Source: Candidatus Borkfalkia avistercoris (GTDB taxonomy: Bacteria > Bacillota > Clostridia > Christensenellales > Borkfalkiaceae). Taken from it: a DNA stretch of 64,000 bases. This document shows positions 114 through 3,308 of the stretch, piece after piece. A program made the position numbers and the translations under genes. Below the pieces are notes generated by a model. It saw nothing but the letters and a program-made list of their open reading frames with translations. It did no database searches and had not been told where the DNA came from. The stretch is from NCBI GenBank assembly GCA_019115995.1, contig DXCL01000046.1:1-64000 (forward strand), read 5' to 3'. Positions within the stretch are counted from its first letter, which is position 1. Each line of letters begins with the position of its first letter.

Positions 114-162
114 ATAGCTATTATAGCATAGCAATGGAACGAAGTCACCTGTATGGGGTTAT

Positions 163-220
163 AAAAAAAGAAATAATCCGAACGCTCCGCCGACTAAAAT
201 CGGTTTCAGGTTCGGATTAT
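163..220 (-). terminator. Likely original terminator of the tRNA-Ser gene, displaced by the element
   Basis: Inverted repeat ataatccgaa...ttcggattat, followed on the minus strand by a T-rich run (revcomp of aaaaaaagaaa). Confidence 0.6.
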
Positions 221-227
221 ACTCGTT

Positions 228-287
228 TGGCGCAGAGAAAGGGATTTGAACCCTTGGTGCTCTTATGGGAGCACACACGATTTCGAG
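228..287 (-). pseudogene. 3' remnant of tRNA-Ser (attachment-site half displaced by integration)
   Basis: Same layout as the 3' part of the intact tRNA-Ser at 3217-3308, with CCA and T-arm, but no 5' half. Confidence 0.85.
256..287. repeat. attL-like direct repeat, 32 bp
   Basis: Exact match to 3245-3276. Confidence 0.9.
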
Positions 288-350
288 ACAGCGCCCCATG
301 CGGTTTGAGCGTAGCGCCCCTTGTGGCAAACCGCCCCGAGGGGCGCTTTT

Positions 351-788
351 TTAATGCTTTCCTTGCGCTCTACGCTGTGCGCGGCTTTGTTTCTGTGCGT
401 TTTCAACCGCGGCACGGCAAGCTCTGTACCACGCCTCGATGTCTTGCCCCTGCATTTTTGCCACGCCTAAAAAGACAAACATTTCAAAAGGGATTTTGAA
501 GTGTGCAACAATTTTGACGATTTGCGGAATTGTCGGTGCGTTTATCCCGTTCTCATATCGGTTTATAGTCGGATTAGGAATGTCAATTTCCTTGCTCAAT
601 GTATTGAGTGATTCTTTTTCGATTTCACGCATTGCTTTCAGCGCGGCACCGAATGCTTTAATAACGTCCGTTTCGTCAAGCTCTGTGTTTAAGTAGTTTT
701 CAAGGTCGGTTTTCGATACGCCTAAATTTTGGGCATTCATCACGACAGCGGTATAAAAGCCCAATACTTCACTTACTTTTAACTTCAT
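351..788 (-). CDS. XRE-family HTH transcriptional regulator (probable element repressor)
   Basis: HTH segment LNTLSKEIDIPNPTINRYENGINAPTIPQIVKIVAHF; divergent from the element's other genes. Confidence 0.85.
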   Translation of the reverse strand: MKLKVSEVLGFYTAVVMNAQNLGVSKTDLENYLNTELDETDVIKAFGAALKAMREIEKESLNTLSKEIDIPNPTINRYENGINAPTIPQIVKIVAHFKIPFEMFVFLGVAKMQGQDIEAWYRACRAAVENAQKQSRAQRRAQGKH

Positions 789-819
789 AAAAACACCTCG
801 CTAAATCTTTCATAGAAAC

Positions 820-848
820 ATTATACAGGAAAGAGAAAAATTTTTCTA
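820..848 (-). promoter_or_regulatory. Promoter of the XRE gene
   Basis: Minus strand TAGAAA-17 nt-TATAAT. Confidence 0.5.
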
Positions 849-914
849 CTTTTTCGTAGCAATTCGCTTGACATTACGAATTCGTAGCGCTATACTAATA
901 TTACGAATCCGTAG
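846..914 (+). promoter_or_regulatory. Divergent promoter with three operator-like sites
   Basis: TTGACA (868-873)-17 nt-TATACT (891-896). Operator-like CTACTTTTTCGTAG (846-859), TTACGAATTCGTAG (874-887) and TTACGAATCCGTAG (901-914). Confidence 0.7.
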
Positions 915-1026
915 TGCAGGACAACACGGAAAGAATTAGCCAACTTAATAGGCATCGTGCCGTTAAAATCTGTTTAAGCTCCGTAGTCCTGTACGGGGCT
1001 TTTACTGTATTCAAGGAGAAAAGACA

Positions 1027-1386
1027 ATGTTTCAATTCGAAAATGCATGGTATCAAGAACTTTTAGAAAAGAGCAAGCGCGGTAGGTACGCAATACGGAA
1101 CAGAAAGGCACTCCAAGACTTCGCGGAAGTAGTGGAGAACTTAGAGCCGTTCGAAGTCGGCTTTATAAAAGCCCTGCGCGCCTGTGATTGGGGTTTCAAA
1201 GCGGAGATAAAGTCGGCGGTGCTTTCGTTTCATCAAACCCGATTTAAGTTTTACCGCCTGCTGTCTATCATGCTTACGGCAGAAAGTTGCATAAAAGGCA
1301 TTGCGGAACCCGCCCGGGGTTTCCCCCACGTAGCCGCCCCGGAAGGGGGCACGGGGGAAACCCCGCCAACGCAAAGCGAAACTTAA
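1027..1386 (+). CDS. Hypothetical protein of the element (119 aa)
   Basis: ORF preceded by aaggag; lies between the regulatory region and rep. Confidence 0.6.
   Translation: MFQFENAWYQELLEKSKRGRYAIRNRKALQDFAEVVENLEPFEVGFIKALRACDWGFKAEIKSAVLSFHQTRFKFYRLLSIMLTAESCIKGIAEPARGFPHVAAPEGGTGETPPTQSET
1316..1364. repeat. Inverted repeat upstream of rep; candidate replication origin
   Basis: ggggtttccccc (1316-1327) / gggggaaacccc (1353-1364), with an inner GC-rich stem gcccc-ggaa-ggggg in the loop. Confidence 0.5.
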
Positions 1387-1439
1387 CTTGATTAAAGGTA
1401 TTTTTGATTCCGCGAGGTGCTCTTTTGGGAGGTTCTTTT

Positions 1440-2300
1440 TTGAGACAGTCGCGCTTTTACGATAGAAAATTGATAGTCAGCGGCAACGTTGCGGAGCTCT
1501 ACGAGTACGAGTTACCCGTTAGCCGTTTCGCGCCGTCAAAGCCCGTCGGACGGGCTGGACAGACTGGCACGACAGAAGAGCAGAAACAAGAGAACAGACG
1601 GAAACGCGCTCAGCGAGCGCGGCAGAAAGTACGCCGCTATGCGAATGCAAATTTCTCCAACGATTCAAAGTTTCTAACGCTCACTTTCAAAGACAATATG
1701 ACGGACTTGAAAGCCGCAAACCGCGACTTCACAAACTTCATCAAGCGCTTTAATAGATACTCTGGGCGACGGCTTCAATACATCGCGGTTCCCGAATTTC
1801 AAGAGCGCGGCGCGGTTCATTATCACATGCTTTTGAATGCCCCCTATATCCCGCACGGGAAGCTTGCCGAACTTTGGGGGCATGGTTTTGTAAAGGTCAA
1901 TCGCATTGACAACGTTGACAATATCGGCGCGTATATTACAAAGTACATGACCAAAGACAGCTTAGACGAACGGCTTAACGGCGTAAAATGCTACTTCATG
2001 AGCTACAATTTGAAAAAGCCCGAACAGACCACAAACGAGGAGCTTATAGACGAAGTGCTTTCCGCCTGCACAGTCAAGCGCGTAGCCTGTTCAAGTAAAT
2101 TCGATACGGAATATTTCGGCGAGGTTCGTTATACGCAGCTCATCATGAAAGAACGGATTTCTCTTGCCGAACTCCGCAAGCAAATCCCCTTACAATCTAA
2201 TAGCCCAAGCGTTGCCCCTTTCGGCGTAAGCGGTTTAGCTCGCCCGTTGAAACAAACTTTATGTGCATTGCAACGCGCAACAAAGCCCTTCGGCGTTTGA
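1440..2300 (+). CDS. Rolling-circle replication initiator (HUH endonuclease, two-Tyr)
   Basis: FLTLTFKDN motif, HUH motif GAVHYHMLLNAP, Tyr motif AYITKYMTKD. TTG start at 1440 chosen because of GGGAGG at 1428-1433; the track start is 1404. Confidence 0.82.
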   Translation: MRQSRFYDRKLIVSGNVAELYEYELPVSRFAPSKPVGRAGQTGTTEEQKQENRRKRAQRARQKVRRYANANFSNDSKFLTLTFKDNMTDLKAANRDFTNFIKRFNRYSGRRLQYIAVPEFQERGAVHYHMLLNAPYIPHGKLAELWGHGFVKVNRIDNVDNIGAYITKYMTKDSLDERLNGVKCYFMSYNLKKPEQTTNEELIDEVLSACTVKRVACSSKFDTEYFGEVRYTQLIMKERISLAELRKQIPLQSNSPSVAPFGVSGLARPLKQTLCALQRATKPFGV

Positions 2301-2352
2301 GAATATCAGCGCGCCCCGCGCCCCCTCTCGCCTACTGTTTGCAGGAGACAAA

Positions 2353-3189
2353 ATGAAAAGAAAGTCTACCTCCCAGACCCTTGGCATTTGGCTTGCCGAG
2401 TGGTTCAGCGTTTACAAGCTCCCGACCGTTGCTAAAAGTACGGCGGAGAATATAGAGCGCGTTATTCGCTTACATATCCCGCAATGGCTCAAAGATTTGC
2501 GGCTTACCGATTTGCGCGCTTTCACGATAGATAAAGCGTTGTCGGGCATAAAATCTACCCGCATGCGGAAGTATGCCTTCCACGTGCTCAATAACAGCCT
2601 TAACAAGGCTTTTCGCCTTGACCTTATTGAATCGGATATTATGAAGAAAGCAGAGCCGATTAAACACCGCTCTAAGCGCGGAGAGGCTCTCACCGTTACC
2701 GAGCAACGCGAGTTTTTGCAAAAGGTAGGCAATCACTATATGCGCAATCTTTTCGAGTTCTACCTATATACGGGCGTAAGGCGTTGCGAGGCTCTTTCGC
2801 TCCGTTGGGCTGACATCGATTTCGAGAGCGATTCAATCCTTATCCGCGGCACAAAAACGCTTACCTCTTTCCGCCGTTTAGACATGCTTCCGCGCGTTCG
2901 TGAGATTCTCCTAAAACAGAAAGCGCAATGCCCCGATAGCCCGCTCGTGTTCCCCTATAAAAAGTTTTACGTTGACGAGGTTTTTAAAAAGTTCTGTCCG
3001 AATCACAAGCTCCATGATCTTCGGCATACTTTCGTTACAAGGTGCGCCGAATGTGGCATAAATGTAAATGTTTGTCAAAGCCTTGCAGGGCACAGTGATA
3101 TAAAAGTAACGCTTCAAACATATACCCATGCGACCGACTTTTTTCGAAAGTCTGAGTATATGAAATTCGATATAGAGCCGCCAAAATGA
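2353..3189 (+). CDS. Tyrosine recombinase / integrase
   Basis: Catalytic segments TGVRRCEALSLRW, HKLHDLRHTFVTR, LAGHSDIKVTLQTYTH; ATG at 2353 preceded by AGGAG. Confidence 0.93.
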   Translation: MKRKSTSQTLGIWLAEWFSVYKLPTVAKSTAENIERVIRLHIPQWLKDLRLTDLRAFTIDKALSGIKSTRMRKYAFHVLNNSLNKAFRLDLIESDIMKKAEPIKHRSKRGEALTVTEQREFLQKVGNHYMRNLFEFYLYTGVRRCEALSLRWADIDFESDSILIRGTKTLTSFRRLDMLPRVREILLKQKAQCPDSPLVFPYKKFYVDEVFKKFCPNHKLHDLRHTFVTRCAECGINVNVCQSLAGHSDIKVTLQTYTHATDFFRKSEYMKFDIEPPK

Positions 3190-3215
3190 CAAAAAGCACC
3201 CTCTTTCGGGTGCTC
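3190..3215 (-). terminator. Element-supplied terminator for the reconstituted tRNA-Ser
   Basis: Minus strand gagcaccc-gaaa-gagggtgc-ttttt. Confidence 0.75.
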
Positions 3216-3216
3216 T

Positions 3217-3308
3217 TGGCGCAGAGAGAGGGATTCGAACCCTCGGTGCTCTTATGGGAGCACACACGATTTCGAGTCGTGCGCGTTCGACCACTCCGCC
3301 ATCTCTGC
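3217..3308 (-). tRNA. tRNA-Ser (anticodon CGA)
   Basis: Acceptor gcagaga/tctctgc, anticodon stem-loop cacga-ctCGAaa-tcgtg, long variable arm, T-arm gaggg-ttcgaat-ccctc, encoded CCA. Confidence 0.93.

Follow-up and report, generated by a model that had tools for sequence, protein, structure and literature searches.

A 3-kb repressor–Rep–integrase element in a tRNA-Ser gene of Candidatus Borkfalkia avistercoris, a probable minimal integrative rolling-circle replicon

Near one end of a 64,000-nucleotide stretch from a metagenome-assembled genome (MAG) of the gut Clostridia bacterium Candidatus Borkfalkia avistercoris (contig DXCL01000046.1, positions 1 to 64,000; hereafter the window), four genes lie between two copies of a tRNA-Ser 3' end. 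Do so few genes comprise a complete mobile element or the residue of a larger one, and if complete, how would it leave the cell? Our analysis suggests that the locus is very probably a minimal integrative rolling-circle element. The initial annotation had proposed an element that integrates and replicates with minimal means, and this is borne out by empty insertion sites, a family-wide origin motif, transfer between species, and further elements in tRNA-Ser and tRNA-Glu genes. Sequence comparison, described below, shows where the element is inserted, which relatives have an empty site, the motif at the origin, the operator pattern and a recent transfer between species.

The insertion site

The features that delimit the element are as follows.

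147-199, minus strand: putative former terminator of the tRNA gene, stranded beyond attL; a stem (AATCCGAAC/GTTCGGATT) followed by a T run, from sequence reading
228-287, minus strand: left attachment site (attL), formerly the 3' end of the tRNA-Ser(CGA) gene and now displaced, from the repeat and comparison with congener tRNAs
256-287: exact 32-bp att core within attL, from a repeat search
332-350, plus strand: terminator-like hairpin inside the left end, a pattern match not above shuffled expectation
3192-3217, minus strand: putative element-supplied terminator, a hairpin immediately 3' of the repaired tRNA gene, by pattern match
3217-3276, minus strand: right attachment site (attR), the element-supplied 3' part of tRNA-Ser(CGA), with the exact att core at 3245-3276
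3217-3308, minus strand: intact tRNA-Ser(CGA) gene (ARAGORN), abutting the integrase end of the element

Window 228-3276 contains an element of 2,989 bp inserted in the tRNA-Ser(CGA) gene. The exact 32-bp repeat first noted at its ends lies where it had been placed, embedded in a 61-bp repeat of 95% identity (227-287 and 3216-3276, spacing 2,989), and the displaced tRNA end moves the left boundary to 228. ARAGORN and the repeat search identify both copies as tRNA-Ser(CGA) 3' ends. The repeat is not a product of chance, because in four congeners (G412, G434, G423 and G296) the same upstream region is followed by an uninterrupted tRNA-Ser(CGA) gene, the empty site that the initial annotation had proposed seeking, and the last 28 nt of these tRNAs (AAGGGTTCAAATCCCTTTCTCTGCGCCA) are identical to the tail displaced in the window. 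That sequence differs at three bases from the present tail of the window's tRNA; the element thus brought its own replacement, as is standard for tRNA-targeting tyrosine integrases. When the outer flanks are joined in silico, ARAGORN accepts the product as a tRNA-Ser, with two mismatches relative to G423 and G296. The attP junction of the excised circle is predicted to join the 3'-int side, TTGGCGCAGAGAGAGGGATTCGAACCC...TTTCGAG, to ACAGCGCCCCATGCGG; in such a circle the hairpin at 332-350 would end the rep-int transcript after attP.

Two further tRNA-like stretches were observed. One, at window 1416-1431, matches the att core GGTGCTCTTATGGGAG at 15 of 16 positions at the start of rep, overlapping its ribosome-binding region, and may be a coincidence. 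The other, at L003:4910-4932, is separated by about 200 bp from a related element; there 23 bp of the tRNA-Ser 3' end occur for a third time, possibly as the scar of an earlier insertion at this site.

Genes, origin and promoter

Between the attachment sites we distinguish the following.

351-788, minus strand: XRE/HTH_3 repressor, 145 aa, by profile matches
868-917, plus strand: promoter of the orf119-rep-int operon with putative operator palindromes, by pattern match and comparison with the related element L111
1027-1386, plus strand: ORF119, an accessory open reading frame (ORF) of no known family
1385-1405, plus strand: predicted double-strand origin and Rep nick site, AACTTG^ATTAAAGGTATTTTT, by motif conservation, the nick being placed by analogy with phiX174
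1404-2300, plus strand: HUH rolling-circle replication initiator (Rep), PF23343 REP_ORF2-G2P and PHROG 3419
2353-3189, plus strand: tyrosine integrase, 278 aa, PF00589 (2.9e-19)

All four genes named in the initial annotation (XRE, a 119-aa ORF, HUH Rep and integrase) are therefore present beside an intact tRNA-Ser, and its remark that no capsid, relaxase or conjugation gene is visible also stands; by ORF and profile searches these are the element's only ORFs, with no Zot, coat, canonical relaxase, coupling-protein, transfer or structural gene among them. The Rep, for which a profile search had been recommended, matches PF23343 REP_ORF2-G2P at 3.3e-25, above the curated cut-off. Its likely start is a TTG at 1440 behind GGGAGG, and its motifs, HYHM and the tyrosines Y177 and Y181 in YITKYMTK, are invariant in seven aligned sequences. 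HUH Rep domains are among the top fold matches of its AlphaFold model (pLDDT 77), at modest to low significance. Integrase residues R143, K168, H221, R224, H247 and Y257, assigned catalytic roles by analogy with the family, are kept in five aligned members. The tRNA att repeats, empty sites and intact integrase catalytic residues are those of a tyrosine-integrase integrative element, while the HUH motif, the tyrosine pair and a conserved candidate nick site upstream of rep place it equally among the HUH rolling-circle replicons (PF23343). The XRE protein is 95% identical at the amino acid level in the sister-species element L001 and 40% in L111. Among NCBIfam profiles it matches RstR, the repressor family of CTXphi, best, but weakly and far below the cut-off. 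ORF119 (92% identical in L001, about 40% in L111) was not found in L002, L003 or L110 and is present only in some members; family searches with it revealed no homology to any family.

The candidate origin is a fixed motif, ACTTGATTA, just upstream of rep. Every close relative with readable sequence has AACTTGATTAWAGGTATT directly upstream of rep, L002 in the form GACTTGATTAAAGGTATT; the motif precedes rep in the window, L001, L002, L003, L110, L111 and L113, and L004 has an ATT variant (ACTTGATTATTGGTATT). It occurs once in the 64-kb window, where none is expected by chance, and several members, including this one, have a GC-rich stem-loop ahead of it. The same motif start is found before related Reps in the plasmids pGTG5 (TTTACTTGATTATAG) and pHT926 (AACTTGATTATAG), an inovirus contig (TTAACTTGATTATAG, L082), a Candidate Phyla Radiation (CPR) locus (GGACTTGATTAC, L005) and Enterococcus elements (TTAACTTGATTTATAG). 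Among viral contigs the exact motif was matched five times, in no case close to a related Rep or integrase. By analogy with the phiX174 nick site, CAACTTG^ATATT, which the motif resembles, Rep likely cleaves between the G and A in AACTTGATTAAAGG.

The operon promoter, TTGACA-17-TATACT at 868-896, agrees with the consensus at 11 of 12 positions. A palindrome (TACGAATTCGTA, 875-886) fills most of its spacer, and a second (TACGAATCCGTA, 902-913) lies downstream. In L111 the same promoter contains TGCGAATTCGCA at the same place, with a second palindrome 25 bp on; relative to the window, both half-sites have changed together in a compensatory manner. This covariation is good evidence that the palindromes are operators of the element's own repressor, and we treat them as putative XRE operators.

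A family of elements and its movement between species

The comparison set comprises one genome per species. Eight complete elements, each with both att copies, were found in different species, seven in tRNA-Ser and one in tRNA-Glu, with att spacings of 2,594-3,133 bp and repeats of 58-61 bp at tRNA-Ser and 24 bp at tRNA-Glu; a recurrence of the block at other tRNA genes, which the initial annotation had suggested looking for, is thus confirmed for tRNA-Ser (CGA and GGA) and tRNA-Glu.

Window, 2,989 bp, and L001, 2,992 bp: tRNA-Ser CGA
L002, 2,594 bp; L003, 2,764 bp; L110, 3,133 bp; L111, 2,889 bp: tRNA-Ser GGA, 59-bp exact repeats
L117, 2,872 bp: tRNA-Ser CGA, 58-bp repeat, Rep strongly diverged
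L004, 2,702 bp: tRNA-Glu, 24-bp repeat, repressor relocated between rep and int

All eight share the repressor, HUH Rep and tyrosine integrase, and no complete member has a recognizable cargo, relaxase, coupling-protein or capsid gene. Six of 40 genomes of the genus contain a complete element; the host of L003 is Candidatus Borkfalkia faecavium. Three more (L112, L113 and L174) run off the ends of their contigs, L112 appearing truncated, and L172 is an integrase-only remnant. The Reps of the tRNA-Ser elements form one clade (99/99), and the tree leaves the deep branches to plasmid or inovirus Reps unresolved.

The integrases at L117:5345-6364 and L173:8-880 are 41-44% identical to that of the window and are paired with strongly diverged PF23343 Reps, which means that rep and int modules are exchanged. 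Distant PF23343-like Reps of the same bacterial family at L055, L114, L115, L116 and L118 were rejected as mini-elements, lying within larger phage-like regions (HNH, terminase-like). A search of viral contigs with the integrase found distant integrases only.

Evidence of movement comes from L001, in a sister species. The two elements are 97% identical throughout, and 1,196 bp (window 1150-2345) are 100% identical, while the sequences flanking the left end bear no relation to each other. Synonymous divergence (dS) is 0 for rep, 0.07 for int and 0.34 for xre, compared with 1.23 for the adjacent host gene. Since rep and int have diverged far less than the host gene and the left flanks are unrelated, the comparison indicates that the element moved between these species, recently and after their separation. 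The left third of the element, in which xre lies, looks recombined.

A proposed life cycle

These data can be accommodated in a simple cycle. In the integrated state, XRE bound to the palindromes inside and just after the promoter would silence the orf119-rep-int operon. Should repression fail, the integrase would recombine the two tRNA-Ser repeats, freeing a circle of 2,989 bp and restoring an intact tRNA gene. Rep would then nick at ACTTG^ATT, shortly before the rep gene, to initiate rolling-circle replication; single-stranded DNA, or the circle, might be passed to a new cell by helper machinery, conjugative or of a filamentous phage. In the recipient, the integrase would insert the element in tRNA-Ser; the gene would be repaired by the tRNA 3' end and terminator that the element brings with it. 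Several observations weigh against this model: the element has no recognizable excisionase gene; the single search for the attP circle junction, in viral contigs only, found none; promoter and terminator scans taken alone are not above chance; the host MAG (89% complete) yielded neither a VirD4 coupling protein nor a Zot helper; and all genomes compared are MAGs.

Candidate routes of export

The element probably needs a helper to leave the cell. The initial annotation had said as much, and this is reasonable given that neither a transfer gene nor a structural gene is present, although no helper was identified. Two refinements of the minimal-element model differ in the helper they propose. The first, tentative but the better placed of the two, would make it an integrative and mobilizable element (IME) of very small size, in which Rep doubles as relaxase and the strand is transferred through a conjugative coupling protein and secretion channel. 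Among 144 streptococcal IMEs, 118 have relaxases related to rolling-circle replication (RCR) initiators, 35 of the 118 without a coupling protein, and ICEBs1 can mobilize RCR-initiator plasmids (PMC5704250). Of 40 genomes of the genus, 6 encode a VirD4-type coupling protein, two of them (G504 and G947) being element carriers, and Enterococcus plasmids with the same gene order are in many cases conjugative. However, no member has a coupling-protein or mobilization gene, streptococcal IMEs measure 5-18 kb (PMC5357655), and a search of the 40 genomes for TcpC found none. Nor are carriers enriched for VirD4 (2 of 8, compared with 4 of 32 others), and the window's own MAG is among those without it.

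The second refinement, which we consider unlikely, is a filamentous-phage satellite whose Rep-made single strands are extruded in the coat of a helper inovirus, its own integrase replacing XerCD. The model here is RS1, a satellite of the filamentous phage CTXphi (PMC11389934). The element resembles it in size and in its logic of a repressor and a replication protein, and RstR is the best NCBIfam match of XRE, though below the cut-off. RS1 is a unit of about 2.7 kb with RstR-like repressor logic and a replication protein, and is not known to carry coat genes. It relies on host XerCD at dif and has a Rep near-identical to its helper's; the element differs in possessing its own integrase, targeting tRNA genes and having no known helper. 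Inoviruses (L082; bajarodino virus 41, 44%; L006 and L011) share the Rep family and nick motif, but so do non-viral plasmids. No coat gene or packaging signal was identified in the element, and the tree does not join its Rep clade with inovirus Reps. Three of 40 congeners, among them the sister species bearing the same element, have Zot-like genes with neighbours of no known family, but these loci could not be shown to be inoviruses, and 1 of 8 carriers has such a gene, so that carriers are not enriched for them. Unlikely too is the wider proposal that the 2.6-3.1 kb XRE-Rep-Int elements are RS1-like, integrase-bearing single-stranded DNA satellites of Clostridia, coated and exported by their hosts' filamentous phages. 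Of the origins offered in the initial annotation, derivation from a single-stranded DNA phage may or may not apply: the Rep family occurs both in inoviruses and in tiny plasmids, and the tree does not resolve the direction. Likeness to a small actinomycete integrative and conjugative element was not sustained, there being no TraB/FtsK translocase and a RepSA match below the cut-off (25.7 versus 34 bits). An inovirus prophage was likewise rejected, as Zot/pI and coat genes are not in the element.

The Zot-like ATPase genes lie at L069:1132-1953, L150:1056-1973 and about L151:6168-6350. Two of these loci have a similar gene of no assigned family after the Zot-like gene, and that of L151 is near large secreted-looking proteins; they could represent an unrecognized inovirus-like element. 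As inoviruses the three contigs were not accepted: the ATPase is real, and they remain a lead. A Zot match in the window's own genome (G000:C38) was rejected as evidence of a phage: its sequence marks it as an AAA-type ATPase, and it lies among host genes. Two human-faecal contigs of 4-4.6 kb recorded as 'bacteriophage' (L076, MT839696.1; L183, MT839987.1) have an XRE-orf-Rep-integrase layout without coat genes, and would hint at packaging if they came from particle fractions.

Two other readings are very improbable. The first is a dead prophage or integrative and conjugative element whose rep/int end survived by chance. Remnants do exist, as L172 and perhaps L112 illustrate; but the eight complete elements of similar size keep their att sites, catalytic residues, origin and promoter, one has moved recently, and no larger homologous element containing these ends was seen. 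The remnant reading is refuted because complete elements of this size recur independently. The second, that the 3-kb identity between the two species is an assembly or binning artefact, has in its favour that carriers are all MAGs and that the identity boundaries are abrupt, but both contigs run into differing host sequence on both sides, and elsewhere the two element copies diverge by 1-18% per 100 bp, which would not be seen in a copied contig.

Relation to known systems

In kind, the minimal integrative rolling-circle element resembles integrated plasmids and those Gram-positive IMEs whose relaxases are of RCR type, though it is smaller. Likened by description, streptococcal IMEs (Rel_PHA00330, Rel_PF01719; PMC5357655, PMC5704250) share with it a site-specific integrase and an RCR-initiator-type protein, and a minority likewise lack a coupling protein (PMC5704250); they usually carry TcpA, whereas this element has no further genes in its 3 kb. 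Rep-encoding elements without viral structural genes, the pCRESS groups, are also integrated site-specifically in bacterial chromosomes (PMC6668415), but their Reps are members of a different HUH supercluster and in most cases include a helicase domain, while that of the element is of the nuclease-only PF23343 type. The tiny rolling-circle plasmids pGTG5 (1,540 bp) and pHT926 (1,786 bp) encode Reps 40-41% identical to the element's Rep, with the same ACTTGATTATAG motif before rep, but are autonomous and lack an integrase or repressor.

An XRE-orf-Rep-DUF3173-Int block on Enterococcus faecium plasmids (L181:4138-8028 and L182:4129-8252) has the element's gene order, CTTAACTTGATT before rep, and a Rep of 41% identity; it differs in its length of about 4 kb, a different integrase family member and the extra DUF3173 protein, and att repeats were not identified. 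This block suggests that the layout is widespread in Bacillota. The neighbouring plasmid genes differ between the two blocks, and matches to the query block were found in 50 plasmid records, covering mostly its left half up to rep, which suggests module exchange. A locus in Candidatus Magasanikbacteria (CPR; L005:4559-6954) contains a related Rep (39%), preceded by the nick-like motif given above, and a serine recombinase gene whose end adjoins tRNA-Asn; it resembles the element but has an integrase of another class.

Integrated Rep plasmids without viral genes (PMC6668415), IMEs with RCR-initiator relaxases and the RS1 satellite (PMC11389934) were thus already known; for the 2.6-3.1 kb repressor-Rep-integrase family no description was found in the open-access papers searched. 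These elements lie below most described prophages and IMEs in size. They represent an unusually small autonomous integrating replicon, comprising one repressor, a Rep, an integrase, an origin and an att site, with signs of recent spread between species. The family makes testable the question of whether a HUH Rep and an integrase suffice for hitchhiking, and on which helper.

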